Shown: positions 294 through 62,144, counted from the first letter of the stretch. The stretch is DNA of 64,000 nt from Actinomycetes bacterium (GCA_029546925.1 JAKPQM010000085.1:1-64000), one strand, 5' to 3'. Made by a program: numbers and translations. The notes: a model not told the origin generated them from the sequence alone.

Positions 294-1265
294 TCACGCT
301 GCTGAGGCGATCTTCTCCTGGTACCAGCTGTAGAGCTCTTCCCAGTTCTGATAACCGCTATCGCCGCGGTGGTCGACAAGGTCGAACGTGGCGGAGAGGT
401 ATTCGCCTACAAACGAGGTGACCTTTTGGGCGCCTGCGAGGTTGAGGTGGTCGCCGCCATCGAACGTCTCGGTCATCCAGTCGATCTCCACCTTGGCGGG
501 ACCTACATTCATATCGATGAACTCGACATCCAGCTCGATCGCGAGCTCTTGGATGGCATCATGGCGCTCGGATGTCCAGTTGATAGAGCTGGAAACGTTC
601 ATCAGGATGGGGGTTGCGCCGATGGAGCGGCAGTACTCGACCATCAGGCGCAGATAATATCTGGCGGTGGCGGGGAGATAATTTATCCGGTAATTACCGC
701 TGCCGGTTCTATGGGGATCGAACTCCTCCTCGATGCCCGTGTTGATACGGAAACCTTTCAAGTTGTCTGAACACGTGTAGCTCGGCTGCAGGAACAAGTC
801 GTCCTGCGTCAGGCTCTTCCAGCGGTCGTGGAACCTGAGCACGGGGAACAGTCCTTCAAGCTCCTTCGAGATCAAGTCGTTTATGGAGAACGCCGAGAAG
901 GCCATGTTGGTCTCGATGATGACGACGCGCGGTGCCTGGGAACGCGTCGCCCTGCGGAGCAGAGCGTTCGCGTAGGGGAGGCGCTGGCCTGAGGTGGCGC
1001 AGACATATGAGGTGATGCCGTGCTCCCCCCATATCTGCAGGGGCGAGAAGGCGCTGTATGCCTCGCTGTCGCCGATGAAGAGCACGTCGATGGTGTTCGC
1101 GGGCTCGCCGAGGATGCCGTTCGCCGCAGCATCGATCATCCCCGCTTCGTCGGAGCTGTCCTTGGGCTGGAAGATGGCCGAGAGGCCGAGCAGGAGCGCT
1201 ATCGTCACGCCGACGATGGCGAGGATGTTCCTGAGCGTTCGCAGCGTTTCGCCTCTCGATTCCAT
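294..1265 (-). CDS. Membrane-anchored SGNH/GDSL-family protein (DltD-like role)
   Basis: A 323-residue protein. One N-terminal membrane segment (about residues 12-32) is followed by an extracytoplasmic SGNH-type domain: block I appears as FIGDSEAYSAF and the C-terminal block as GGDHLNLAG, providing the Ser and Asp/His of a hydrolase or transferase triad. The start is ATG with AGGAGG upstream, and that site overlaps the end of the MBOAT gene, so the two are co-translated. In Dlt, alginate and PatA/PatB-type systems an SGNH partner works with the MBOAT protein to place an acyl group on an exported polymer. I infer that role here. It is the last gene of a four-gene operon. The true substrate is unknown. 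Confidence 0.7.
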   Translation of the reverse strand: MESRGETLRTLRNILAIVGVTIALLLGLSAIFQPKDSSDEAGMIDAAANGILGEPANTIDVLFIGDSEAYSAFSPLQIWGEHGITSYVCATSGQRLPYANALLRRATRSQAPRVVIIETNMAFSAFSINDLISKELEGLFPVLRFHDRWKSLTQDDLFLQPSYTCSDNLKGFRINTGIEEEFDPHRTGSGNYRINYLPATARYYLRLMVEYCRSIGATPILMNVSSSINWTSERHDAIQELAIELDVEFIDMNVGPAKVEIDWMTETFDGGDHLNLAGAQKVTSFVGEYLSATFDLVDHRGDSGYQNWEELYSWYQEKIASAA

Positions 1266-1273
1266 CCAACCTC

Positions 1274-2860
1274 CTAGAACTGCGCATAGAGGGGGTCAAC
1301 GGGGGCATACCCATACCCGTATGCGCCGAAGACGACGATGAGCAGGAAAAGACCGATCAGCACGCTCCATCTGGCGGGAATGGGCAAAGATGCAGCCGGT
1401 CTGCAGATGCCTTTACCGCATTCCCGGGCAATGCCGATAGCCAGCACGAGCACGAGCATGGCAGCCGAGATCAGCAAGTCGTGTCCGTCGAGGCCGAGGG
1501 CGAGGAACGTTCCGTCGGCGAACGATTCCAAGGAGAACGATCCGACCAGCGTGGAGAAGAGCTCTATGCCGCGCGGAAGCCCCTTGGCGCGGAAGAACAG
1601 CTCGCCAACGAAGATGACGACCAAGGTGCGCAGCGTCTGGAACACGCGGTAGGGTGCGTGGGCCCGGTCGATTCCCCAGCGCTCGGAAAGATCCTGCGCA
1701 ACCGGTTCGATAAGGCCGCCTGCCATGATTATCACGAAGTAGTACATGCCGAAGAACAGGTACTGCATACCCGCACCATGCCAGAGGCCGTTCAAGAACC
1801 ATACGCAGAACAGGGCGATCCCGCCTGAGAGGAGCGGGCCGTAGCGGTTGCCGCATGCCTTGCGCGCCGCCGAGGTGAGACGCTTGCATCCCTTCGATAG
1901 GGAGATGGGATAGTATACGTAGTCCTTGAACCAGGCGCCGAGCGTGATGTGCCAGCGCTGCCAGAACTCCGACGCCGTCCTCGAGAAGAAGGGCTGCCTG
2001 AAGTTCTCAGGCAGCCCGACATTGAAGATGCGCCCGACACCCAGCGCCACATCCATGGCACCCGAGAAATCGCAGTAGAGCTGGATCGTGTAGAGGATGG
2101 CGGCAAAGGCGATTATGCCGCCGTCGTAGGCAGCCTTTCCATCGAAGACGGTTTCGACGAGCAGGTTGAGGCGGTCGGCGATGATGATCTTCTTGGCCAT
2201 GCCGTAAAGGATCCGCAGCGCTCCCTCGTAGAGCCTGCCGCGCTTGATGGGCTCGCCTGCGTAGAGGGCTTCGGCGGTCTGGCCGTAGCGGCAGATGGGT
2301 CCTTCCATGATCTGCGGGAAGAAGCAGAGATAGAGCATCAGGCGACCGAGATGATGGTCGGCGGGAATGCTCTCGCGATAGACGTCCGAGAGGTAGGAGA
2401 TGGCCATCAGCGTGTAGAAGGAGATGCCGATGGGCGCCCTTATCGGGGGGATGCCGATAGGGGCATCGACCCCGAACGGCACCAGCACCGCCCTCGTTAT
2501 CTCGCAGAAGAATGCCAGGTATTTCGACAGGAAGAGCATGAGCAGGTTGGCGACGATTCCTGCGGCGAGTACGAGCCGCATGCGGCGTCTGCAGCTTGCG
2601 CGCGCCTCTTTCTTGGGCGTCCCCTCCACTATAAGCCGGTCCCGACGTGCGATGAGCGCCTCTATGCCCAAACCGCACGCATACACGACGAGGGCCGATG
2701 CGAGAAACATCAGCGTGAGCTGTCTGCTGAGGTGCCAGAGGAAGAGCAGGCTGGTGCCTAAGAGCGCCGCCCATCGGAAGCGCTTCGGCGCAACTGCATA
2801 GAGAAGGATCGATAGGGGGAGGAAGATGAACGAGAACGTTATGGTGAAATACGAGGTCAT
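1274..2860 (-). CDS. MBOAT family O-acyltransferase (AlgI/DltB-like)
   Basis: A 528-residue polytopic membrane protein with about ten or more hydrophobic segments. Hallmarks include FWQRWHITLGAWFKDYVYYP and the catalytic histidine motif NGLWHGAGMQY. YLCFFPQIMEGPI and YCDFSGAMDVALG are also typical of the AlgI/DltB branch. These proteins take an acyl group, often from a carrier-protein thioester, and pass it across the membrane for O-acylation of a polymer. It lies 7 bases after the acyl carrier protein gene and just before the SGNH gene, so carrier, MBOAT and SGNH form a Dlt-like relay. The length of about 500 residues is normal for the family. Confidence 0.9.
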   Translation of the reverse strand: MTSYFTITFSFIFLPLSILLYAVAPKRFRWAALLGTSLLFLWHLSRQLTLMFLASALVVYACGLGIEALIARRDRLIVEGTPKKEARASCRRRMRLVLAAGIVANLLMLFLSKYLAFFCEITRAVLVPFGVDAPIGIPPIRAPIGISFYTLMAISYLSDVYRESIPADHHLGRLMLYLCFFPQIMEGPICRYGQTAEALYAGEPIKRGRLYEGALRILYGMAKKIIIADRLNLLVETVFDGKAAYDGGIIAFAAILYTIQLYCDFSGAMDVALGVGRIFNVGLPENFRQPFFSRTASEFWQRWHITLGAWFKDYVYYPISLSKGCKRLTSAARKACGNRYGPLLSGGIALFCVWFLNGLWHGAGMQYLFFGMYYFVIIMAGGLIEPVAQDLSERWGIDRAHAPYRVFQTLRTLVVIFVGELFFRAKGLPRGIELFSTLVGSFSLESFADGTFLALGLDGHDLLISAAMLVLVLAIGIARECGKGICRPAASLPIPARWSVLIGLFLLIVVFGAYGYGYAPVDPLYAQF

Positions 2861-2867
2861 AGGCGGT

Positions 2868-3113
2868 CTAGTCGAGATCCTCCTCGACTAGGCGGTCGAT
2901 CATGCCCGCGATGGCCGCTGCCGAGTTGAAGTTGTCGGCTACGATCTCCACGGCGGGGATGTCGACCTCGAACTTATCCTCGAGATCGGCAACGAGCGCG
3001 ATCATGGTAAGCGAATCGATGCGGCGGTCGTCGATGAGTGTTGTGCAGCTCTTGAAATCTACGCCCGGGCAGAGATCCTCGAGCAATTCGATGATGGCAT
3101 CCTCGGTACTCAC
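2868..3113 (-). CDS. Acyl/aminoacyl carrier protein
   Basis: An 81-residue acidic protein of the phosphopantetheine carrier family. The attachment serine lies in RRIDSLTMIALV (DSL motif, near residue 34), followed by FEVDIPAVEI, as in ACP and DltC proteins. It would need a 4'-phosphopantetheinyl transferase encoded elsewhere. It sits between a PLP decarboxylase and an MBOAT acyltransferase, with a GGAAAGG ribosome site upstream. The context suggests it holds an amino acid or its decarboxylated product as a thioester rather than working in fatty acid synthesis. No adenylating ligase for loading it is seen nearby. Confidence 0.9.
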   Translation of the reverse strand: MSTEDAIIELLEDLCPGVDFKSCTTLIDDRRIDSLTMIALVADLEDKFEVDIPAVEIVADNFNSAAAIAGMIDRLVEEDLD

Positions 3114-3137
3114 GGCAATCCTTTCTCCGTTCGGCCT

Positions 3138-4352
3138 CTACTGGAAGGCGTTGATGGGGTCGGTGGGGATACGGTCGCGGATGAGGCGCATCTCTCCCGA
3201 TGCGTCGGTCAGGTAGATGCGCGGAAGATCGCGGCTGAGGAAAAGCGAGATGCCCTCGGTCATGCAGTATGCTCCCGCGTTTGGGAAGACCAGACGATCG
3301 CCTATCGCAAGATCGGATCCTCCGAACTGTTTGATGAGGATGTCGTTGGACGTGCAGAGCGATCCGCAGACAGTCCAGATAGCAGGCTCGGCGGCATGGC
3401 GCGTGGGTACGGCGTGGCATACGGGAGGTGTGAGGGCGAGCTCGTGCCCGTAATAGCTGATCTGGTGTCTTCCGCCATCGACGATGGCGTAGCTATGCCT
3501 GCGGTTGACCTTGGTGTCGATGACCGTGGTCACATAGGTTCCGCACGATGCGGCCATGGCGCGGCCCATCTCGAGGATGACCGTGCCGTTGAATCGCAGG
3601 GACGAGAGCGACGTTCTCAGGGCACCAAGATACTCGCGATCGCGGGCACTGCGGCGAGCGCCATCCTGCTCGCTGTAATCGACGGGGAGGCCCGGACCGT
3701 ACTCGAGCTCGAGCACCTCGGCCCCGCACTCCCTGCCGATGGACTCGATAAGCTTGTCGAGCTTTTCCAGCTCGCGGGTGATCCTGCTGGGCGAGCTCTT
3801 CTGGGTTCCCGAGAAGAACTGGATACCCCTGAAGTCGATATGCGGCTTGTTCCGATGCCCGCTCATGAGCTGCTTGGCCGCGGAAGCGTCCATGCCGAAC
3901 TGGTTCCCGCTGGTGATACGCAAAAGAACGGGGATCCGCACATCCATCTCCTGTGCCAGGGATTCGAGGAGTGCGAACTGCTCGGCCGATTCGACCGTGA
4001 AACGGTGGATTTTGGAAGGGGAGGAGATGAGCTCGCGCATGTGGGCGGGATCCTTGTTGATGCCCGAGATGGTGAGTCGTCCGTGGGGGATGCTGTTCTT
4101 CTGGCAGATACGGTACTCACCCGGTGAGCAGACTTCCAGAAACTCCGCTTCGCGGCAGGCCGCTTCGAGGATGAAAGGGTTCGCCTTCATGGCGTAGCAG
4201 AGGACGGTGTCTTCGGGAAGCGCTTCTCTGAGAGAGCGGATACGACGCCTGACCTCGCTCTCGTCGAATACGTAGAAGGGGGTCTCGCCTTGCCCGATCA
4301 TGCTCTGGTATCTCTGGCCGAGTACGATTATCACGTCCCTTGTCACGTGCAT
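3138..4352 (-). CDS. Fold-type III PLP-dependent decarboxylase (LysA/BtrK-like)
   Basis: A 404-residue protein of the alanine-racemase-fold decarboxylase family (diaminopimelate, ornithine and BtrK-type enzymes). The PLP lysine is in VLCYAMKANPF. The C-terminal half has GSLCTSNDIL and FPNAGAYCMT, the usual active-site pair (Cys and Tyr) of this family. It heads the operon with the acyl carrier protein. In butirosin synthesis the related BtrK decarboxylates a glutamyl group while it is bound to the carrier BtrI; this neighbourhood suggests the same chemistry. A free diaminopimelate decarboxylase is less likely because no lysine genes are near. The ATG start follows a hairpin with no clear ribosome site; residue 18 (Met) is an alternative start. 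Confidence 0.8.
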   Translation of the reverse strand: MHVTRDVIIVLGQRYQSMIGQGETPFYVFDESEVRRRIRSLREALPEDTVLCYAMKANPFILEAACREAEFLEVCSPGEYRICQKNSIPHGRLTISGINKDPAHMRELISSPSKIHRFTVESAEQFALLESLAQEMDVRIPVLLRITSGNQFGMDASAAKQLMSGHRNKPHIDFRGIQFFSGTQKSSPSRITRELEKLDKLIESIGRECGAEVLELEYGPGLPVDYSEQDGARRSARDREYLGALRTSLSSLRFNGTVILEMGRAMAASCGTYVTTVIDTKVNRRHSYAIVDGGRHQISYYGHELALTPPVCHAVPTRHAAEPAIWTVCGSLCTSNDILIKQFGGSDLAIGDRLVFPNAGAYCMTEGISLFLSRDLPRIYLTDASGEMRLIRDRIPTDPINAFQ

Positions 4353-4634: not shown

Positions 4635-5087
4635 ATGCGCCATCGCGTGACCGTCACTGTCATCGGCAAGAAGCTCTTCCCGGATCTCCAAGAGGCCTAT
4701 CTTGCCGCCGTCCCCACGAGCGGTGCGTGCCCCTGCTTTACGGTGGGGCAGCAGTTCCATTTCTGGCGCGAAGGCGGGCGCGGCGACTTCTGGCGTTTCG
4801 GTCGCGGCGCGCTCGCGGGGGATTTCCCCTGTGCCGAGGCCTGGGACTGCATCAGCCGCCATATCTACACGGCCCTGCAGGGAGGCTCGCTCATGCACGG
4901 ATGGATCAACGACGACCGCATCATGATCGCCTGCTGCAATGACGGCACGCGGCCCGTGATCTTCAAGATCGAGCGCGAGGATATCCCCTGCTATCCCGCA
5001 CTCTGCCGCGCAGCGCATGTAGCCGGACTCCAAGCGATCGATGCCCGCGGGATCGATATCCCCCGAGAATGCCACACTTTCCCATAA
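4635..5087 (+). CDS. TIGR04076 family protein
   Basis: A 150-residue soluble protein. Features I associate with the TIGR04076 family are the VTVIGKKLFPDL opening, GACPCFTVGQQF, and the C-terminal GWINDDRIMIACCNDGTRPV with a Cys-Cys-Asn-Asp core before VIFKIER. Conserved cysteines (residues 34-36, and the CC pair at about 98) hint at metal or redox chemistry, but the family has no established function. These are small stand-alone proteins common in anaerobes. The start ATG follows GGGAGGCCCACC. It appears monocistronic, divergent from the acylation operon and followed by a strong hairpin. Confidence 0.75.
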   Translation: MRHRVTVTVIGKKLFPDLQEAYLAAVPTSGACPCFTVGQQFHFWREGGRGDFWRFGRGALAGDFPCAEAWDCISRHIYTALQGGSLMHGWINDDRIMIACCNDGTRPVIFKIEREDIPCYPALCRAAHVAGLQAIDARGIDIPRECHTFP

Positions 5088-51600: not shown

Positions 51601-51832
51601 CGCCGCATCTGCCGAGGAGGCGCGTGAGCTCGCCGCCGAGCTCACGGAACGCGTGATGGGTGCCAAGGCCGATGTCGCCATCCTGCCGCTTCAGGACGTG
51701 CTGCTCCTCGGCGCCGAGAGCCGCATGAACGTGCCGGGCGTCGCCGAGGGCAACTGGAGCTGGCGTGCCGATGCCCAAGCGGTCATGGCCGCGGGCGATC
51801 GCCTCGCCAAGCTCGTCGGCATGCACGGATAG
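48617..51832 (+). CDS. Alpha-amylase-family glycosidase fused to 4-alpha-glucanotransferase (GH13-GH77)
   Basis: A 1071-residue two-enzyme protein. N-terminal part: beta-sandwich module (1-120), then a GH13 barrel with DGVFNHTG, GWRLDVADE (nucleophile Asp350), VIGEVWED (Glu379) and GTHDRM (Asp454). From about 640 a GH77 amylomaltase follows: DMPMYVAADSADVWAHP, VRLDHFVGF (Asp889), LLAEDLGTITP (Glu935), GTHDTTTILAW. It would shorten and rearrange maltodextrins released from glycogen. The likely start is TTG 48617 with GAAGAGG eight bases upstream; no nearby ATG is in frame. Ends the glycogen operon. Confidence 0.9.
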   Translation: MHARHITSDSDYRTPFGAVQLGGTVKLAIDVWDEEPQGAELRLWIEGNGEALIPMEAEACGDATRFSVDFMPRCAGIFWYTFKIRAADGSVWSYGAREEHAVGEGAFHYGETPSFQITVYVPRKTQPTWYQQGVVYQIFPDRFSRGDDWRERAETLEMPREGPQRRLVEDWDTPVSYERSEGGGIAAWDFYGGTLEGVREKLGYLEALGITAIYLNPIFEAASNHRYDTADYTRIDPLLGDEESFRALCADAEEHGISIILDGVFNHTGRDSRYFNAFGNYPDVGAAQSPESPYHLWYKMEEDGSYSSWWGVADLPDIDECNPDYRAFICGENGIVRRWLRAGARGWRLDVADELPDPFIAEIKAAALAERDDALVIGEVWEDATHKVAYNELRRYFEGEELDGVMNYPLRAGILRYLTGEATATELADTLEQLIENYPPEALANCLNVLGTHDRMRLFTILGGAPDKSELTDEQRAGYRLSEGQASLARSRLWLAALLQMSLPGVPCIYYGDELGLEGYNDPYNRAPMPWDAPDPYCPTIYRNAIGLRKALPVLVDGSCEPFAAGDDVFGFWRRSEAGCVCVLVNASLEEIHEVELPMAAPQVSDVISGRAVAVEDGVCTVTLWPLGSSVLHFHEEARLQKPLGAGAGVLAHITSVPNGGRPGTLGEPAMRFLEWLHKAGVRYWQILPVNPTDAYGSPYAGLSAFAGDPALLEPRTERDYRLAERDIARGCRFADENASWLEPYALFRALKDAMGEEPWWEWPEKYRSFDRALLGERSLRLRVRRHMADQLLFERAWERIRAYAAERGIAIIGDMPMYVAADSADVWAHPGIFDPALLAGAPPDPLGPQGQLWGNPTFRWDVLGESGYAWWLERFGRMFALYDYVRLDHFVGFSSYYGIPAGKTALEGAWRFGPGKKLFTAAYDRFGPLPLLAEDLGTITPAVRALLAEVGAPGMSVAQFADEDVLEGFHPAPDTVAFTGTHDTTTILAWCGDRAASAEEARELAAELTERVMGAKADVAILPLQDVLLLGAESRMNVPGVAEGNWSWRADAQAVMAAGDRLAKLVGMHG

Positions 51833-51974
51833 GCAGCCTATCGGCGATGCGCGCTGTCCGGGCGGGGCGATGGCCCTCCAGATATGGAGAGGCTATCGCC
51901 CGTGCGCCCGGCCACGCGTTTGGGCTATACTCATATGGACTGTGCCTACTCGTATCCTCGCAGGTTGCACGCCT

Positions 51975-54773
51975 ATGCTCGCTATTCCGTACAACGTCAT
52001 CGTCACGCCGCTCATCTACCTCATCGAGCTGGTCTACGCGGTGCTCAACCGCTTCTTCGTGAATCCGGGCTTCTCCATCATCGGCGTGAGCCTGGCCGTG
52101 AACTTCCTGGCGCTCCCGCTCTACCGGCGCGCCGACCTCATCCAAGAGGAGGAGCGCGACAAGCAGGCGTCCATGGCGCGCTGGGTCGATCACATCAAGG
52201 CGCATTTCAAGGGCGACGAGCAATACATGATGCTCTCGACCTACTATCGCCAGCAGGATTACAAGCCCACCCAAGCGCTCAGGAGCTCGTTGTCGCTGCT
52301 GCTCCAGATCCCCTTCTTCATGGCAGCCTACAGCTATCTCTCCAACCTCGGCGATCTCGAGGGGACGCGCTTCCTGTTCATCGACGATCTCTCGCAACCC
52401 GACCAGCTGATCTCGATAGGCGCCTTCGCGCTCAACGTCCTGCCCATCGCCATGACGCTCATCAACTGCCTCTCGACATCCATCTACACCAAGGGCCTGC
52501 CCCTGCGCGATAAGATCCAGGCGTATGGTTTGGCGGCGGCCTTCCTCGTGCTGCTCTATCAGAGTCCGGCGGGCCTCGTCTTCTACTGGACCTGCAACCA
52601 GATCTTCTCGCTGGCCAAGAACGTCTTCCTCAAGGTGCTCGAGAATCCGCGCAGGGTATTCGCCCTGCTCGTGCAGGCCCTGTTCGTGGTCGTGGGGATA
52701 TATCTGTTCCATGCGGGCCGCCTCGGCTCGCCGCGCCGCATGCTGGGCGCGTGCGCGTTCGTGGCGCTGGTGGAGGCCTTCCTCTTCCTTCCGTCTGTCT
52801 TGGAGGCCCGTAAGGGGGAAGATGGTGCGGAACAGCCCGGGGGACCTTCCCCGACGCGCTCGTTTCTGCTCGCCGCGGTGCTCATCACCGTCATCCTCGG
52901 CGTGCTCATCCCGTCCGCGCTCATCAGCGCCTCGCCCAAGGAGTTCATCGACGAGTATGCGGTGGCGAGCCCGCTGCGCCATATCGTCACCACGAGCTCC
53001 ATCATCGGCGGCCTCGTGATCTTCTGGGGCGGCGTCTTCTTCTACCTCGGCAACCTCAAAACCCGCCGCCTCATCGCGTGCGCCTACTGGCTCCTTGCGG
53101 GTGCCTGCCTCGTCGACTTCCTCTTCTTCGGGCAGCATCTCGGCACCATCACCAAGGATCTGGTATTCGAGGCCTATCCCTCCTACCCGCTCAGGGAGAA
53201 GCTCCTGAACCTCGCCGCGCTTGCCGGGCTCGCTGCGGCCATGCTCGTCCTGTGGCGCAGGAAGCGCGATCTCGTCAATGCGGCGCTCGGCATCCTCATC
53301 ATCGTGGCCGCAGCCGTGGCGGTGCCCAACCTCGTCTCCATCCAGACCGCAACCGCCGAGATGGAGGCGCACAGCGCCCAGATCGGCCAGGGCACGTCTG
53401 CGGGCCATGCCGACGGCGCGACTGCGCTCTTCGATGCCGATGGCAGCATCATCCCCCTCATCCACCTCTCGCGGGAGGGGAGGAATGTGGTGGTGCTCTT
53501 CATGGACCGCGCCATGGGCACGTACATGCCCTATATCCTGGCCGAGCGCCCCGAGCTCCGGGAGCAGTTCGACGGATTCGTCTACTATCCCAACACGCTC
53601 TCCTTCGGCTCCTGCACCGTCTATGGCGGCCCCCCGCTCTACGGCGGCTACGAGTACACGCCCACCGAGATGAACAAGCGCGATACCGAGCTGCTTTCCG
53701 AGAAGCACAACGAGGCCATCAAGGTCATGCCCACGCTCTTCACCGAGGCGGGCTTCTCGGCGGTGCAGTTCGATCCGCCGCTCGTCTCCTACACGTATGG
53801 CACGCGCGATTTCAGCATGTTCGATGCCATCGACGGCTTCTCCACCTATCGGGTCGAAGGTGCCTACAGCGCCTACTACCTCGAGGGCGGGCGCAGCCGC
53901 TCTGCGGAGAACCTCACGCGCAGCTTCGTGTTCTACAGCCTCTTCAAGGCTGCTCCCGTTGTGCTCCAGACGACCGTCTACGACCAGGGCAACTACTACT
54001 CGACGCTCGTCAGCCACGCCACCAACAGCGATTTCATCAACAACTACTCGGTGCTTGCCCTGTTGGGCGAGCTGACCTCGATCGAGAGCGGCGGCAGCGA
54101 CAACTTCGTGATCCTGCACAACGATGCGACGCACTCGCCGCAGATGCTCCAACTGCCCGATTACGAGTTCTCGGAGTTCGTCAACAACGAGGGCCTCGAG
54201 GATTACGGCCGCTTCACGATCGATGGCCGCACCATCGACATGGGCAACCCCACCTATCTGGCCAGCTACCACTCCAGCATGGCCACGTTCATCCAGCTGG
54301 GGACGTGGTTCGATCTCCTGCGCGAGAGCGGGGCCTACGACAACACGCGCATCATCATCGTCTCGGATCACGGCTATCCGTACGCTCAATTCCAAGATCT
54401 CCTCATCGACGGCGATCAGGATATCTGGAACTTCATCCGCATGAACGTCAACAGCGTCAACCCGCTGCTCATGGTCAAGGATTTCGACGCGCACGGCTTC
54501 GAGACCTCAGGCGAATTCATGACCAATGCCGATACGCCCCTCATCGCCATGGAGGGCATCATCGAGGATCCGGTGAACCCCTATACGGGCAAGCCCATGA
54601 CCGACGAGGAGAAACATGCCCACGATCAGCTCATCACCACCTCGTGGCACCACAACGTCGGCGACAACCACCACGGCACGGTGTTCGAGACCGGTGATGG
54701 CTACTGGTACAGCGTGCACGACGACATCTTCGATCCCGATAACTGGACGCTCGTCCAAGGTCCCACGGAGTAG
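51975..54773 (+). CDS. YidC/Oxa1-like membrane domain fused to sulfatase-fold (LtaS-like) domain
   Basis: A 932-residue membrane protein. Residues about 1-215 resemble YidC/Oxa1 insertases (SIIGVSLAVNFLALPLYRRA, LLLQIPFFMAAYSYL, SPAGLVFYWTCNQIFSLAKN). About seven more membrane helices follow to residue 460. The extracellular part is an alkaline phosphatase/sulfatase fold as in lipoteichoic acid synthase: VVVLFMDRAMG (Asp511), likely nucleophile region SFGSCTVYGGPPLYGG (Thr548), IIIVSDHGYP (Asp798, His799) and HHNVGDNHHG. It probably transfers a phospho-group to or from a surface polymer; what the YidC part does is unknown. The ATG at 51975 has a weak site (GCAGG). First gene of the surface-polymer cluster. 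Confidence 0.8.
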   Translation: MLAIPYNVIVTPLIYLIELVYAVLNRFFVNPGFSIIGVSLAVNFLALPLYRRADLIQEEERDKQASMARWVDHIKAHFKGDEQYMMLSTYYRQQDYKPTQALRSSLSLLLQIPFFMAAYSYLSNLGDLEGTRFLFIDDLSQPDQLISIGAFALNVLPIAMTLINCLSTSIYTKGLPLRDKIQAYGLAAAFLVLLYQSPAGLVFYWTCNQIFSLAKNVFLKVLENPRRVFALLVQALFVVVGIYLFHAGRLGSPRRMLGACAFVALVEAFLFLPSVLEARKGEDGAEQPGGPSPTRSFLLAAVLITVILGVLIPSALISASPKEFIDEYAVASPLRHIVTTSSIIGGLVIFWGGVFFYLGNLKTRRLIACAYWLLAGACLVDFLFFGQHLGTITKDLVFEAYPSYPLREKLLNLAALAGLAAAMLVLWRRKRDLVNAALGILIIVAAAVAVPNLVSIQTATAEMEAHSAQIGQGTSAGHADGATALFDADGSIIPLIHLSREGRNVVVLFMDRAMGTYMPYILAERPELREQFDGFVYYPNTLSFGSCTVYGGPPLYGGYEYTPTEMNKRDTELLSEKHNEAIKVMPTLFTEAGFSAVQFDPPLVSYTYGTRDFSMFDAIDGFSTYRVEGAYSAYYLEGGRSRSAENLTRSFVFYSLFKAAPVVLQTTVYDQGNYYSTLVSHATNSDFINNYSVLALLGELTSIESGGSDNFVILHNDATHSPQMLQLPDYEFSEFVNNEGLEDYGRFTIDGRTIDMGNPTYLASYHSSMATFIQLGTWFDLLRESGAYDNTRIIIVSDHGYPYAQFQDLLIDGDQDIWNFIRMNVNSVNPLLMVKDFDAHGFETSGEFMTNADTPLIAMEGIIEDPVNPYTGKPMTDEEKHAHDQLITTSWHHNVGDNHHGTVFETGDGYWYSVHDDIFDPDNWTLVQGPTE

Positions 54774-54783
54774 GTGAGCGACC

Positions 54784-56031
54784 ATGATATCCGCCCACCT
54801 TTCCCACTACATCGACCCCGGCACGGGCAGCATGCTCTTCACGCTGCTCATCGGTTTGGTGACCACGGGCTTCTTCTTCCTCCGCAAGGTGCTCATCAAC
54901 GTCCGCGTCGTGCTGTCGGGGGGCACTGCCAAGCCGGTGGACGGGGGGAAGCTCCCGTACGTGATCTTTGCGGATCACAAGCGCTACTGGAACATCTTCA
55001 AGCCTATCTGCGATGAGTTCGAGCGGCGCGGCGTGGAGCTCCACTACTGGACGGCATCGCCCGACGACCCCGCGCTCGATGAGGGCTACGAGCACGTGGT
55101 GCGCGAGTTCATCGGCGAGGGCAACAAGGCCTTCGCACGCCTCAACATGATGAGCGCGAACGTGGTGCTCTCGACCACGCCCGGCCTCGACGTGCTCCAA
55201 TGGAAGCGCTCCAAGGATGCGGACTGCTACGTGCATGTCCTCCACGCCCTGGGAACCGCCGCCGGCTACCGCATGTTCGGCCTCGACTACTACGATGCGG
55301 TCCTGCTCTCATGCGATCTCCAGGCCGATGAGATCCGCACGCTCGAGGAGCTCCGCAAGCTTCCCCCCAAGGAGCTCGAGATCGTCGGCTGCACCTATCT
55401 CGACATCATGGCCGAGCGCGCCAAAACCCTCGCGCCTGCTCGCAACGAGCCTCCCTGCGTTTTGCTCGCCCCATCGTGGGGCGAGAGCGCCATCCTCTCC
55501 GTCTATGGCAAGGAGATCATCGACGCCCTGCTCGATACCGGCTACGAGATCGTCATCCGCCCGCACCCGCAGTCCATGACTGCGGAGAAGAAGCTGCTCG
55601 ATTCCCTCATGGCCGCATACCCCGACGGCGAGGCCCTTAACTGGAACTTCGACAACGACAACTTCGATATCCTCAATCGCGCCGACATCATGATCAGCGA
55701 CTTCTCGGGCGTCGTTCTAGACTACGCCCTCATCTTCGACAAGCCCGTCATCTCCACGCAGAGCACCTTGGATGAGGCGGTCTACGATTCCGCATGGCTC
55801 GACGGGCCGCTCTGGACGTCCGCCATCTATTCCTCGCTCGGCCCCGAGCTCTCGAAGGACCAGTTCCCGAGGATGCGCGAGGTCATCGACGAGGTCGTCG
55901 CAGACACCACGCTGGCAGAGGGCAGGGATCGTGCCCGCCGGCAGACATGGGCCTTCCAGGGCGAGAGCGTTGCGCGCACGGTTGACTATCTCATCGAGAA
56001 GCACGACGAGCTGGTGAATCCATCCGAATAG
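54784..56031 (+). CDS. CDP-glycerol glycerophosphotransferase-family (TagF-like) enzyme
   Basis: A 415-residue protein. The N-terminus has IDPGTGSMLFTLLIGLVTT and one membrane helix, a leader often seen on these proteins, then a GT-B-like glycerophosphotransferase domain with IRPHPQS, NADIMISDFSGVVLDYAL-like core (NRADIMISDFSGVV) and FDKPVIS. Such enzymes polymerise or prime poly(glycerol phosphate) or related teichoic acids at the inner membrane face from CDP-activated donors. It starts ten bases after the fusion gene. Confidence 0.88.
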   Translation: MISAHLSHYIDPGTGSMLFTLLIGLVTTGFFFLRKVLINVRVVLSGGTAKPVDGGKLPYVIFADHKRYWNIFKPICDEFERRGVELHYWTASPDDPALDEGYEHVVREFIGEGNKAFARLNMMSANVVLSTTPGLDVLQWKRSKDADCYVHVLHALGTAAGYRMFGLDYYDAVLLSCDLQADEIRTLEELRKLPPKELEIVGCTYLDIMAERAKTLAPARNEPPCVLLAPSWGESAILSVYGKEIIDALLDTGYEIVIRPHPQSMTAEKKLLDSLMAAYPDGEALNWNFDNDNFDILNRADIMISDFSGVVLDYALIFDKPVISTQSTLDEAVYDSAWLDGPLWTSAIYSSLGPELSKDQFPRMREVIDEVVADTTLAEGRDRARRQTWAFQGESVARTVDYLIEKHDELVNPSE

Positions 56032-56049
56032 AGAGCACAGGGGAGACAG

Positions 56050-57867
56050 ATGCAGGCTATCATCCTCGCGGCGGGCATGGGCAAGCGGCTTAAGACGCTT
56101 ACCGCCGACAACACCAAATGCATGATCGAGGTCAATGGCGTGACCCTCATCGAGCGTGTCCTTTCGCAGCTCGATGAGCTGAGCCTCGATCGCATCGTCA
56201 TCGTCGACGGCTACCAGTCGCAGAAGCTACGCGACTATGTTGCCACGCTCGATGTGGAGACGCCCATCGAATGGCGCCTCAACCCGTTCTTCGACAAGAC
56301 CAACAACATCTACTCGCTCTCGCTCGCCATGGGCGACCTCGAGGAGGACGATACCCTGCTGCTCGAGAGCGACATCATCTTCGAGGAGGGGATCTTGCGC
56401 GAGCTCGTCGAGGATCCCCGCCCCACGCTCGCCCTCGTGGACAAGTACGAGAGCTGGATGGACGGCACCGTCGTCAAGGTGGACGAGAACGACGAGATCG
56501 TCGCCTTCGTTCCCGGCAAGAAGTTCAAGTTCCAAGATATCGGCGAGTACTACAAGACCGTGAACATCTACAAGTTCTCGAAGGAGTTCTCGCGCACCCA
56601 CTACGTTCCTTTCCTCGAGGCCTACGTCAAGGCGCTCGGCAACAACGAGTATTACGAGCAGGTGCTCCGCGTCATCATGCACCTCGACGACTCCGAGCTC
56701 AAGGCCAAGCGGCTCAGCGGCCAGCTCTGGTACGAGATCGACGATCTCCAGGATCTCGATATCGCCGAGTCCATGTTCTCGCCCGACGAAGACGAGCGGC
56801 TCAGCATGCTCGAGGGCCGCTATGGCGGCTACTGGCGCTATCCCGGACTCATCGACTTCTGCTATCTCGTGAACCCCTACTTCCCGCCCCAGCGCCTGCT
56901 CGACGAGATGCGTGCGAGCTTCGATGCGCTGGTCACCCAGTACCCTTCGGGTATGCGCGTGAACGCGCTGCTGGCCGCCAAGACCTTCGGCGTGGGGCAG
57001 GACCGCATCGTGGTGGGCAACGGCGCCGCAGAGCTCATCAAGGCCCTCCTCGAGCGCTTCGCGGGCAACGTCGGCTTCATCCGCCCCACCTTCGAGGAAT
57101 ATCCCAACCGCTATCCCGAGGAGCGCTCGGTCGTCTTCGTCCCCACGCGCGAGGACTTCTCCTATACCGCCGACGAGCTCACGGCCTTCTTCGCCGGCAA
57201 GGGCCTCGAGGCCCTCGTGCTCATCAATCCCGATAACCCCACCGGCTCCTACATGCCCAAAGCCGACGTCGCGCGTCTGGCCGCATGGTGCGAGGAGCAG
57301 GGCATCCGCCTCGTGTACGACGAGTCGTTCTCCGATTTCTCCGACGAGCCCGCCAATACCTTCCTCGACGACGGGCTGCTCGGACGCTATCCGCACCTCG
57401 TGGTGGTGAAGAGCATCTCCAAGTCCTACGGTGTGCCGGGCGTGCGCCTCGGCGTCGTCGCCTCCGCCGATGCCGCGCTCATCGATGCGATCAAGCGCGC
57501 GGTGTCGATCTGGAACATCAACTCCTTCGGCGAGTTCTTCCTCCAGATCGCCGAGAAGTACCAAGGCGATTACCGAAGCGCCCTCGTCGGCCTGCGCGAG
57601 GCCCGCGCCGCGCTGGCCGATGACCTAGCTCAGATCGAGGGGGTGCGTCCGCTGCCCTCCCAGGCGAACTACCTCATGGTCGAGCTGACGGACCCCGTGG
57701 GATCGCGCGAGCTCGCGCGGAGGCTCTTGACGAGCCATCGGATCCTCATCAAGGACCTCTCCGGGAAGATCAGGTGCGGTGAGCGGCAGTTCGTGCGCGT
57801 GGCCGTGCGCGGCGCTGCGGATAACGCCCGTTTGGTCGCGGCCCTGAGATCTGTGCTGTGTCGATAG
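56050..57867 (+). CDS. Bifunctional LicC-like cytidylyltransferase / class I-II PLP enzyme
   Basis: A 605-residue fusion. Residues 1-240 are a sugar-nucleotidyltransferase fold of the phosphocholine cytidylyltransferase type (IILAAGMGKRLKTLTADNTK, LLLESDIIFEEGIL). Residues about 250-605 are a fold-type I PLP enzyme close to HisC/CobD (INPDNPTGSYMP, YDESFSDF, PLP lysine 458 in VVKSISKSYGVPGVRLG). CobD relatives in Campylobacter capsule loci decarboxylate serine phosphate to ethanolamine phosphate. A fusion with a cytidylyltransferase could make CDP-ethanolamine from serine phosphate in one protein (inference). An aminotransferase forming another CDP-linked amine is the alternative. Downstream of the TagF-like gene by 18 bases. 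Confidence 0.82.
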   Translation: MQAIILAAGMGKRLKTLTADNTKCMIEVNGVTLIERVLSQLDELSLDRIVIVDGYQSQKLRDYVATLDVETPIEWRLNPFFDKTNNIYSLSLAMGDLEEDDTLLLESDIIFEEGILRELVEDPRPTLALVDKYESWMDGTVVKVDENDEIVAFVPGKKFKFQDIGEYYKTVNIYKFSKEFSRTHYVPFLEAYVKALGNNEYYEQVLRVIMHLDDSELKAKRLSGQLWYEIDDLQDLDIAESMFSPDEDERLSMLEGRYGGYWRYPGLIDFCYLVNPYFPPQRLLDEMRASFDALVTQYPSGMRVNALLAAKTFGVGQDRIVVGNGAAELIKALLERFAGNVGFIRPTFEEYPNRYPEERSVVFVPTREDFSYTADELTAFFAGKGLEALVLINPDNPTGSYMPKADVARLAAWCEEQGIRLVYDESFSDFSDEPANTFLDDGLLGRYPHLVVVKSISKSYGVPGVRLGVVASADAALIDAIKRAVSIWNINSFGEFFLQIAEKYQGDYRSALVGLREARAALADDLAQIEGVRPLPSQANYLMVELTDPVGSRELARRLLTSHRILIKDLSGKIRCGERQFVRVAVRGAADNARLVAALRSVLCR

Positions 57868-57884
57868 GGATCCGGGGGGCGACT

Positions 57885-58964
57885 ATGGAAATCGCTGTCA
57901 TCGGCGGGGGGAATATAGGCACGCTCATCGCAGCGGAGTTCGCCGCGTGTGGACATGCCGTGCGTCTGCGTGCATCGGAGCCGCAGATATTCTCCAAGAC
58001 GATAGGCGTGTTCGATACCGACGATGGGCTGATCCTGCAGGGAACGCCTTCTTGCATCACCGACGACCTAGCCGTTGCCGTCGACGGTGCGGAGATGATC
58101 TGCATAACCTACCCGACGTTCATGTTCCGTGATCTCGGGGAGAAGCTGGCGGCTTGCATCGAAGCCGGTCAGACGATCTGCGTGATGCCCGGTGCGGCCG
58201 CCGAATTCTTCTTCGGCGCCTGCATCGATAAGGGGGCTGTCCTTCTCGGCCTCCAGCGCGTCCACTGCGTGGCGCGTTTGAAGGAGCGCGGGAAGAGCGT
58301 GTACATGCTCGGACGCAAGGCGGAGCTCCAGCTTGCATCGGTGCCCGTCCGGATCGCGCAGGATCGCGCTCCTGTAGTCGCCGAGCTCTTCGAGATGCCC
58401 GTCCGGGTCCTGCCGAACTACCTTGTCGAGACGCTCACCCCGTCGAACCCGATCCTGCACACCACGCGCCTTTGCTCGATGTTCTCATCGTGGGAACCCG
58501 GCATCGTGTATCCCGCCAATATCCTGTTCTACGAGAGCTGGGATGATGCCAGCTCTGAGCTGCTGATCGCCTGCGATGACGAGCTGCAGCAGGTCTGCCG
58601 CGCTCTTGAGAGGATGCTCGATATCGATTTGTCGGAGGTCCGGTCGCTCAAAGCGCATTACGAAAGTCCCGATGCTGCGGCAATGACCGCGAAGATAGCG
58701 CATATCCCCGCTTTCAAGGGTTTGACCTCCCCCATGAGGCAGGTCGCACCCGGGCAGTGGACGCCTGATTTCACTTCAAGGTATTTCCGAGCCGACTTCC
58801 CCTACGGTCTCAAGATAATCAAGGATTTCGCCGCGTTCGCTGGGATCGGGACGCCGCATATCGACCATGTGTGGGAATGGTATCTCGGCGTTTCCGCTGC
58901 CCGTGAGTTCTTCGAGGATATCCCTGCGGATATCGAGGGGCTCAAGGCGCTCTACCATCTGTAA
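57885..58964 (+). CDS. NAD/NADP octopine/nopaline dehydrogenase family protein
   Basis: A 359-residue opine dehydrogenase-type protein. The N-terminal Rossmann domain begins IAVIGGGNIGTLIAAEFAA; the C-terminal octopine dehydrogenase domain has SNPILHTTRLCSMFS, with the probable catalytic His192. Opine enzymes reductively join an amino acid and a 2-oxo acid. In a polymer cluster this could supply an N-(carboxyalkyl) amino acid as a decoration, or make a metallophore-like compound. The ATG at 57885 has GGGGGG upstream; a GTG at 57858 would overlap the previous gene. Confidence 0.8.
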   Translation: MEIAVIGGGNIGTLIAAEFAACGHAVRLRASEPQIFSKTIGVFDTDDGLILQGTPSCITDDLAVAVDGAEMICITYPTFMFRDLGEKLAACIEAGQTICVMPGAAAEFFFGACIDKGAVLLGLQRVHCVARLKERGKSVYMLGRKAELQLASVPVRIAQDRAPVVAELFEMPVRVLPNYLVETLTPSNPILHTTRLCSMFSSWEPGIVYPANILFYESWDDASSELLIACDDELQQVCRALERMLDIDLSEVRSLKAHYESPDAAAMTAKIAHIPAFKGLTSPMRQVAPGQWTPDFTSRYFRADFPYGLKIIKDFAAFAGIGTPHIDHVWEWYLGVSAAREFFEDIPADIEGLKALYHL

Positions 58965-58994
58965 CCAAGTCCGCACTATCTCTGCGAGGCGCAC

Positions 58995-60560
58995 ATGAAC
59001 GTCTACGAAGGTTCCGTTTTAACCGTCAACGCGCAGGATGAGGTCTTCCGCTATCTCGTGGAGGATCGGGGGCGCATCGTATTCGTGGGAGACGAGCTCC
59101 CGCCCGCATACGCCGGCCAGCCCGTCATCAGCTTGGGCACCCGCGCGCTCGCGCCCAGCTTCGTGGACACCCACGAGCACTTCGCGAGCTTCGCCACGTT
59201 CAACGCAGGCCTCAACGTCATGGATGCGCGCTCCAACAGGGAGATCATGCAGATGGCCTCCGATTTCGCGAAGCGCTCCAAGGCCAAGATCCTCATCGCC
59301 TTCGGGGCCTCGCCCTATTCGGTGGCCGAGGGGCGCCTGCTCTCCCGCGAGGAGCTCGACGCGGCCTGCCCCGGCAAGCCGTTCATGATGGGCAAGTACG
59401 ACGGCCATGCCTGCGTGGTCAACAGCAAGCTCCTCGAGCTCGTGGACGATACGGTCAGGGACCTCCGCGGCTACCATCCCGATACGGGCGAGATGAACCA
59501 GGAGGCGTTCTTCGCCGTCTCGGACTTCATCACCGCATCGCTCTCCATCCCCGAGCTCATCTCCAATATGCTGCATGCCATGGACTACCTCGCGTCCAAG
59601 GGCATCGGCATGGTCCACACGGTGTCGGGCATCGGCTTTGCCGGCGACCTCGACATCACGCTCGAGAAGATCGTGGGCAGGGGAGCCCAGCATGGCTTCC
59701 AGATGCGCGTGTTCCCGCAGTCCCTGGACGTCACGGTCGCGACCTCCCGCAAGCTCCCGCGCATCGGCGGCTGCTTCGCCTGCGCCCTCGACGGCTGCTT
59801 CGGCTCCGCCGATGCCGCCCTCATCGAGCCCTATGCCGCAAGCGGGGGCTGCGGCGTGCTCTACTACACCGACGAGCAGATCATCGACTTCTGCAAGCAG
59901 GCCGACGGCCTCGGCCTCCAGATCGAGATGCACGCCATCGGCGATGCGGCCTTCGCGCAGGCCGCCCGCTGCCTCAAGGCCGCGCTCGACGCCACGGCGC
60001 GCGCGGATCACCGCCACGGCATCATCCACGGCTGCCTGCCCACCGCAGAGGGCATCGAGATCTGCGCCGAGCACGGCATCCAGATGCCCATGCAGACCTC
60101 CTTCATCGATTGGCCGCAGGAACCCGACAGCTACCTCGAGTCGCTGCTCGGCCCCGCGCGGGCCGCCCGCCTCAATCCCATCCGCACCCTCTGGGACAGG
60201 GGCATCGTCATCTCCGCAGGCTCCGATGCGCCGTGCACCGACCCCGATCCCATCATGTGGATGGACAAGGCGGTCAACAACCCCAACGAGGACGAGCGCC
60301 TCACGCGCCGGGAGGCCCTGCGCATGTGCACCTACAACGGGGCGTGGACCAGCTTCGACGAGCGCGAGCGCGGCTCGCTCGAGGCGGGCAAGATCGCCGA
60401 CATGGTGGTGCTCTCCGCCAATCCCTACGAGGTTCCCGCCGCCGATCTCGGCGCCGTCGAGGTCGAGCGCCTGATCCTATCGGGCAAGCCCTACCGGCCC
60501 CAGTCAAAGAACATCGCCGCCGCCCTCATCCGCGGCCTTGCAAGCAAGGCGAAGATCTAG
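58995..60560 (+). CDS. YtcJ-like metal-dependent amidohydrolase
   Basis: A 521-residue amidohydrolase_3 family protein. Seen: LAPSFVDTHEHFASFA (HxH metal site, with Glu between the histidines), EMHAIGDAAFAQAA, DHRHGIIHGCLP and SAGSDAPCTDPDPIMWMDKA (metal Asp). It is a diverged paralogue of the protein at 21393. It ends one base before the LicC-LicA fusion, so it belongs to the polymer operon, where an amidohydrolase is unexpected. It may free an amine precursor such as choline or ethanolamine from an amide (speculative). Function unknown. Confidence 0.8.
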   Translation: MNVYEGSVLTVNAQDEVFRYLVEDRGRIVFVGDELPPAYAGQPVISLGTRALAPSFVDTHEHFASFATFNAGLNVMDARSNREIMQMASDFAKRSKAKILIAFGASPYSVAEGRLLSREELDAACPGKPFMMGKYDGHACVVNSKLLELVDDTVRDLRGYHPDTGEMNQEAFFAVSDFITASLSIPELISNMLHAMDYLASKGIGMVHTVSGIGFAGDLDITLEKIVGRGAQHGFQMRVFPQSLDVTVATSRKLPRIGGCFACALDGCFGSADAALIEPYAASGGCGVLYYTDEQIIDFCKQADGLGLQIEMHAIGDAAFAQAARCLKAALDATARADHRHGIIHGCLPTAEGIEICAEHGIQMPMQTSFIDWPQEPDSYLESLLGPARAARLNPIRTLWDRGIVISAGSDAPCTDPDPIMWMDKAVNNPNEDERLTRREALRMCTYNGAWTSFDERERGSLEAGKIADMVVLSANPYEVPAADLGAVEVERLILSGKPYRPQSKNIAAALIRGLASKAKI

Positions 60561-62144
60561 ATGGCGAAACGCGCGATCATCCTTGCGGCGGGGGCGGGCA
60601 AGCGCATGGCCCCCCTCTCCTACGAGCTGCCCAAAGCCCTTTTGACCGTGCGCGGCGAGGTGCTCATCGAGCGGCTCATCCGCCAGCTCCATGAGGCGGG
60701 CGCAGACGATATCGTCCTCGTCGTGGGCTATATGAAGGAGTCGCTCTTCTACCTCGAGGATGCCTTCGGCGCGCGCATCCGCATCAACGCAGACTATGCC
60801 GATACGGGCAGCGCGGCATCCCTGTTCCTCGCACGTGATATGCTTCCCGGTGCCTGGGTGTGCTCGTCCGACCAGTATTTTCCCGAGAATCCCTTCGTGG
60901 ATGCCGAAGACGGCTCGCTCGCCACGCTCATCGAGCGCGAGGGTTCCAAACGTGAGCCTCGGGCCGAGGTCGATGGCGACGGGATGATCCGCGCGCTCTC
61001 AACGCAGATCCCGAGCGGCCTCATCTTCCAAGGCCCCGCCTTCTTCTCGGTAGAGGACGGCGCGGCGTTCGCGGGCATCCTCGAGCGCGAGAGCCATGCG
61101 CCCCTTTTTGCCTCCCTGCTCTGGGACCAGATCTTTGTCCAGCACGCAGACGAGATCAGCATGCGCGCGCGGGTGCTTCCCGAAGATGCCGTGCGAGAGT
61201 TCAAGAGCTTCAACGATCTTGTCGCCTACGACCGCGATTTCGTGGAGAACGTCGATCTTGCCATCTTGGATAACATCTGCGCCACGCTGGCATGCGAGCG
61301 GCGCGATATCACGGATGTCACCCCCATCAAGCAGGGCCTCACCAACCTCTCGTTCCGCTTCGACTGCAAGGGCACGGCGTACGTGTACCGCCATCCCGGT
61401 GCGGGGACCGATGAGATCATCAACCGCGCCGCCGAGGCGCATGCCCTGCATATCGCTCGCGAGCTGGGGCTCGACGAGACCTTCGTGTACGAGGACCCCG
61501 ATGAGGGATGGAAGCTCTCGCGCTTCATCGATGGCTGCGAGCCGTTCGACTACGGCAAGCGCGATCACGTGAAGCGCGCGCTCTCGCTTGCGCGGCGCCT
61601 GCACGAGAGCGGGGAGATCTCTCCCTGGTCGTTCGACTACCGAGCCGAGGCCGAGAAGATCGCCGGCATCCTGCGCGCCATGCACTATCCGCTCCCCCGC
61701 GATTTCTCCGAGCTCGCGAAGCGGATGGGAAGGCTCGCGGATCACCTTGCCGCCGATGGGGGAGAGCCGGTGCTCTGCCACAATGACTTCTACGGCCCCA
61801 ACCTGCTCGTGCACGGCGATGATATGTGGCTCATCGACTGGGAATACTCCGCCATGGGCGATTACGCGTGCGATCTCGGCAACTTCGTCGCGCAGGGTTC
61901 CAACTACCCGCCCGATGAGACCCTCGAGGTCATCGACCTCTACTATGGGCGGAAGGCTACCGCCGCCGAGCAGCGCCACTGCCTCGCGGCGGTTGCGCTC
62001 GTGGGCTGGTACTGGTATGTATGGGCGATCTACAAGGGGGCGAAGGGCAGCCCGGTGGGCGAGTGGCTCTACGTCTGGTACCGCGCCGCGCAAACCTACT
62101 GCGATGCCGCCATGCCCCTGTACGAGGAGGATATGCATGGGTGA
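60561..62144 (+). CDS. Bifunctional phosphocholine cytidylyltransferase / choline kinase (LicC-LicA fusion)
   Basis: A 527-residue fusion. Residues 1-235 are a LicC-type nucleotidyltransferase (IILAAGAGKRMAPLSYELPK, NADYADTGSAASLFLAR). Residues about 240-527 are a choline/ethanolamine kinase-type fold (LTNLSFRFDCKGTAYVYRHPG, catalytic LCHNDFYGPNLLV, metal LIDWEYSAMGDYACDLG). Together they would phosphorylate choline and activate it as CDP-choline for transfer to a teichoic acid or other surface glycan. The start is directly after the amidohydrolase stop. No choline transporter is seen in the window. Confidence 0.88.
   Translation: MAKRAIILAAGAGKRMAPLSYELPKALLTVRGEVLIERLIRQLHEAGADDIVLVVGYMKESLFYLEDAFGARIRINADYADTGSAASLFLARDMLPGAWVCSSDQYFPENPFVDAEDGSLATLIEREGSKREPRAEVDGDGMIRALSTQIPSGLIFQGPAFFSVEDGAAFAGILERESHAPLFASLLWDQIFVQHADEISMRARVLPEDAVREFKSFNDLVAYDRDFVENVDLAILDNICATLACERRDITDVTPIKQGLTNLSFRFDCKGTAYVYRHPGAGTDEIINRAAEAHALHIARELGLDETFVYEDPDEGWKLSRFIDGCEPFDYGKRDHVKRALSLARRLHESGEISPWSFDYRAEAEKIAGILRAMHYPLPRDFSELAKRMGRLADHLAADGGEPVLCHNDFYGPNLLVHGDDMWLIDWEYSAMGDYACDLGNFVAQGSNYPPDETLEVIDLYYGRKATAAEQRHCLAAVALVGWYWYVWAIYKGAKGSPVGEWLYVWYRAAQTYCDAAMPLYEEDMHG

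Follow-up and report, generated by a model that had tools for sequence, protein, structure and literature searches.

A decarboxylase–carrier–MBOAT–SGNH operon, probably the carrier, decarboxylase and export portion of a Dlt-like system for envelope acylation

The stretch of DNA analysed here—hereafter called the window—corresponds to bases 1–64,000 of contig C31, part of a 2.4 Mb genome most closely related to Coriobacteriia from the rumen and gut. Near the start of the window, four genes on the minus strand follow one another in the order PLP decarboxylase, carrier, MBOAT and SGNH, with intergenic gaps of 24, 7 and 8 bases:

3138..4352, minus strand: PLP-dependent fold-III (alanine-racemase-fold) decarboxylase, 404 aa; PLP lysine K56
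2868..3113, minus strand: acyl/aminoacyl carrier protein, 81 aa, GTG start; phosphopantetheine Ser34 (codon 3014-3012)
1274..2860, minus strand: DltB-like membrane-bound O-acyltransferase (MBOAT), 528 aa; catalytic His pair H304 and H361
294..1265, minus strand: SGNH protein of 323 aa, putatively DltD-like and single-pass; GDS block (65-67) and D269/D272-H273 block

The initial annotation had described a four-gene operon, and we confirmed all four genes at these positions, closely packed. The window starts at the contig edge, beyond which the region 3′ of the SGNH gene falls. On the other side, a divergent 150-aa ORF with no Pfam match lies upstream of the decarboxylase (window 4635-5087, plus strand).

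The domain assignments agree with this description. Pfam detects Orn_Arg_deC_N and Orn_DAP_Arg_deC in the decarboxylase, PP-binding in the carrier (25.4 bits) and PF03062 in the MBOAT (51.7 bits). Ser34 of the carrier is invariant in 79/79 sequences, and the H304/H361 pair of the MBOAT in 74/74. We take this pair as the counterpart of His289/His336 in DltB (PMC11035591). Pfam does not match the SGNH protein, but its AF2 model (pLDDT 91.9) shows an SGNH-hydrolase fold and a helix at the N terminus, and superposes on E. coli TesA (1ivn) with a Z of 14.6 and an rmsd of 2.8 over 163 aligned residues. The fold matches listed for the model are SGNH hydrolases, DltD itself not being among them, and the GDS and DxxDH blocks are conserved in the alignment.

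How widely is this arrangement conserved? Searching species genomes with the window decarboxylase yielded 380 relatives. We analysed the best 80 of these loci, which come from Coriobacteriia and Clostridia (Coriobacteriia, Oscillospiraceae, Lachnospiraceae, Clostridium and others), by clustering their neighbouring genes and counting only loci with enough contig. Among these best 80 of 380 relatives—picked by similarity to the window decarboxylase (41–71% identity), and hence non-independent—the carrier follows the decarboxylase in 77/77 loci, the MBOAT is present in 73/73 and the SGNH gene in 63/64. Moreover, an NRPS-type amino-acid ligase lies directly upstream of the decarboxylase in 74/74 of these best 80 of 380, contig permitting. 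The neighbourhood survey suggested in the initial annotation thus reveals strict co-conservation of the operon, and the opposite pattern, an operon that is not co-conserved, disagrees with these counts. The same survey overturns the initial view that the decarboxylase replaces the ligase: in the relatives, the two enzymes occur together. Within the window's family, the decarboxylase is present in 36 of 140 genomes and the ligase accompanies it in 35 of the 36, the single genome with the former and without the latter being 73% complete.

Where, then, is the ligase in the window genome? Neither a ligase nor a ligase remnant lies upstream of the decarboxylase in the window operon. The same is true of G079, a genome of the same genus, where a tRNA-like sequence precedes the decarboxylase by about 200 bases. 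The window genome contains eight AMP-binding matches, of which only one is of the right kind. It is located on contig C71, in an MBOAT–SGNH–ligase–carrier operon that lacks a decarboxylase. The C71 ligase shares 51–54% identity with the decarboxylase-linked ligases, and in other genera of the family its close relatives adjoin a decarboxylase. Since it is present in all five searched genomes of the window's genus, it is not a contaminant. A motif-based reading of the NRPS code positions gives its pocket as D-V-K-x-M-S-L-C-N-K, which matches the D-V-K-x-L/M-S-L-C-N-K of nearly all decarboxylase-linked ligases. Many class-A operons share this ligase pocket, with Lys239, with the C71 operon and belong to genomes that lack the decarboxylase altogether (e.g., G078). 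The initial annotation had placed the loading ligase elsewhere in the genome, and the shared pocket residues make the C71 enzyme a candidate. We infer that it loads both the C71 carrier and the window carrier, the latter in trans.

In NRPS codes, acidic or iso-linked substrates carry Lys or Arg at position 239, a rule for which our literature search returned no match. Lys239 therefore suggests, by analogy, that the substrate bears a second carboxylate at activation and, if so, that loading would precede decarboxylation.

The properties of the decarboxylase bear on the same question. Its best PDB sequence match is BtrK (2j66, E 1.1e-23), and its model matches DAPDC and BtrK equally well (Z 36–37), with BtrK among the top identities there (27%). 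BtrK decarboxylates BtrI-S-glutamate, and BtrK and DAPDC share one clade (PMC7857480). Lys56 is invariant (81/81). The two features by which LysA recognizes DAP, the RPALY Arg and a Glu following the catalytic Cys, occur in none of the 81 decarboxylases, nor in BtrK; the motif reads CT, as in BtrK, instead of CE. The PLP-facing (stacking) His is replaced by Gln in 80/81 window-type decarboxylases, while it is His in the class-A relatives and BtrK. The window enzyme scores 156.2 bits against LysA TIGR01048, below the cut-off of 297.9, while a separate lysA candidate on C57 reaches 277 bits, slightly under the same cut-off. The top NCBIfam match, TIGR03099 (160.3 bits), is likewise under its cut-off of 478.45.

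These observations disfavour action on free diaminopimelate only, an outcome that would speak against the initial proposal, because the DAP-recognition residues are absent and a separate lysA is present. They also bear on the broader alternative that the substrate of the decarboxylase is a free amino acid (DAP, lysine, ornithine, aspartate or glutamate) and that the ligase then activates the free product. The nearest housekeeping relatives, LysA and ODC, do use free amino acids, and the fold does not separate BtrK from DAPDC. However, the decarboxylase gene occurs with the carrier gene in all 77 loci with enough contig among the best 80 of 380 relatives, and Lys239 of the ligase would have no role with a product that lacks a second carboxylate. 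Together with the missing LysA residues and the separate lysA, this makes a free substrate unlikely.

We next compare the cassette with known systems. With Dlt (DltA-DltC-DltB-DltD), the family shares a ligase, a small carrier, a His-pair MBOAT and a putatively single-pass SGNH protein encoded in one operon, as well as the logic of passing a thioester to membrane acyl transfer. In contrast to Dlt, the cassette includes a PLP decarboxylase, and its ligase is an NRPS-type adenylation enzyme that lies above the cut-off of TIGR01733 (amino-acid adenylation) and far under that of DltA: against TIGR01734 (cut-off 559.85), the C71 ligase scores 238.4 bits and a decarboxylase-linked ligase 257.4. The ligase pocket also differs from what we take to be the DltA pocket. 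The carrier and the MBOAT behave similarly, with 28 bits against DltC PRK05087 (cut-off 68) and 132 bits against DltB TIGR04091 (cut-off 375). The system is probably Dlt-like in its working, but lies outside Dlt by curated cut-offs.

The combination of a stand-alone adenylation enzyme, an ACP and a PLP decarboxylase is also known from natural-product pathways, namely VinN/VinL/VinO (vicenistatin) and FlvN (fluvirucin). An adenylation enzyme, a carrier and a PLP decarboxylase likewise stand together in the relatives, while the ligase of the window genome is encoded on a separate contig. The presumed specificity residues of VinN appear to be absent from the cassette ligase. In the vicenistatin system, decarboxylation takes place only once the thioester has formed (PMC11284099). 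The amine unit of vicenistatin and fluvirucin passes to a polyketide synthase, whereas the partners in the present cassette are an MBOAT and an SGNH protein. The butirosin system BtrK/BtrI/BtrJ is similar in that BtrK, the best PDB match, acts on a glutamyl carrier protein; it differs in that its product becomes an aminoglycoside side chain, while we propose an envelope modification here. The ligase of the butirosin pathway is of the ATP-grasp type. Finally, the cassette ligase and decarboxylase match the exosortase-A-associated families TIGR03098 and TIGR03099, far below both cut-offs. A true TIGR03099 member, L196, has the ligase, decarboxylase and carrier in tandem, and such triads occur in three Actinomycetota loci besides the cassette (L196, L197 and L199, the last from a large-genome actinomycete); at these three loci, we detected no MBOAT or SGNH relative. 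In a phylum-wide search with TIGR03099, LysA-like matches dominate. The new element is thus the joining of the ligase/decarboxylase/carrier triad to a DltB/DltD-like pair. Our literature search, with most subscription journals outside its coverage, returned no description of this gene combination, and the cassette, widespread in gut bacteria, is apparently undescribed.

The window therefore probably encodes one half of a Dlt-like machinery for acylating the envelope, namely the carrier, the decarboxylase and the export proteins, with the ligase most likely supplied in trans from C71. Of the initial proposal of Dlt-like acylation, the BtrK-like decarboxylase in a co-conserved operon stands, and the decarboxylase as a ligase substitute does not. 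We infer the following scheme, from the trans-loading and the order of the steps to the substrate, product, acceptor and physiological role. First, a stand-alone NRPS-type ligase, for which the C71 paralogue is the likeliest candidate in the window's genus, acting in trans, would activate an amino acid with an extra carboxylate and attach it to the carrier's phosphopantetheine arm. Second, the decarboxylase would strip the free alpha-carboxylate from the carrier-bound group, in the manner of BtrK and VinO, leaving an amine-terminated acyl thioester. The product would be a beta-alanyl group from side-chain-activated aspartate, or a gamma-aminobutyryl group from glutamate. Finally, the MBOAT would move the acyl group through the membrane and act together with the SGNH protein to esterify an extracellular polymer (e.g., a teichoic-acid-like one), adding positive charge. 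GABA thioesters are prone to cyclise, and this speaks against GABA in the absence of rapid transfer; we thus place aspartate to beta-alanyl first and glutamate to GABA second.

An alternative is that the operon is decaying in the window's genus, the ligase being gone, and is either non-functional or bypassed, with only the undecarboxylated pathway in use. The operon ligase is indeed missing in both genus genomes that have the operon, and the decarboxylase is absent from three other genus genomes, two of which are incomplete. Nevertheless, all four window genes are intact with all their catalytic residues, the G079 decarboxylase orthologue is likewise intact at 71% identity, and a ligase with the same pocket is still encoded in the genome. 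We accordingly regard decay as quite unlikely, and trans-loading from C71 as the better reading. Least probable of all is that the ligase loads diaminopimelate by one carboxyl and that decarboxylation of its free end gives a lysyl-carrier, and so lysine on the polymer: loaded DAP would retain a free amino-acid end, and the common BtrK–DAPDC clade implies shared ancestry (PMC7857480), but lysine could be loaded directly, which would make the decarboxylase pointless, and the residues for DAP recognition are lacking.

The decarboxylase-free operons add a further aspect to the scheme. Among those inspected, no other decarboxylase lies between the ligase and the carrier. Since these operons keep the same pocket, decarboxylation would be optional, and the undecarboxylated group would also be usable. 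Tentatively, the decarboxylase may therefore be an optional module, without which a zwitterionic aminoacyl group would be transferred and with which a cationic beta-alanyl or GABA group would be; in the window's genus, one ligase and two carriers could then give both products. As to the source of the substrate, an aminotransferase is the sole nearby substrate-supply gene, in seven loci, which is too weak for a substrate to be deduced.

What could the acceptor be? The window genome encodes LytR-CpsA-Psr proteins. In addition, the plus strand of the window at 51765-62144 encodes a TagF-like glycerophosphotransferase, a nucleotidyltransferase–aminotransferase fusion, an octopine-dehydrogenase-like protein, an amidohydrolase, an ORF with a YidC-like (60KD_IMP) start and a sulfatase-like end, and a nucleotidyltransferase–choline-kinase-like fusion. 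This region is possibly a locus for a teichoic-acid-like or phospho-head-group polymer. The LytR-CpsA-Psr proteins and the TagF-like locus thus make a phosphate-rich surface polymer plausible as the acceptor. D-alanylation is the textbook route by which Gram-positive bacteria tune their envelope charge and resist cationic peptides. If our reading is true, the cassette would be a parallel system that uses an amine group more stable to hydrolysis, is common in gut anaerobes and often lies near a two-component system. It would couple a natural-product cassette (ligase, carrier and decarboxylase) to an envelope acyltransferase, and genome-based predictions of envelope charge would have to be made differently.

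Several features of individual loci complete the picture. In 35 of the 68 loci with room for them (L043-L122), genes for a response regulator and for a large histidine kinase adjoin the operon, which suggests its induction by an envelope signal. At L156 (G114), a single ligase–decarboxylase–carrier set has two MBOAT and three SGNH genes at its flanks, as might be expected if one carrier supplied two exporters. The window and C71 carriers are 47% identical, as against 38–51% for other decarboxylase-linked carriers, giving no signal of convergence of the former on the latter as a mark of shared loading; the modest identity of the pair speaks against trans-loading. Between the ligase and the carrier, the place of the decarboxylase is taken by a GNAT-like gene in two of the operons that lack it (L173:5646-6497 and L174:6991-7854); the Pfam match is from the L174 copy, the one compared with Pfam. 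These GNAT-bearing operons are a third variant of the cassette.
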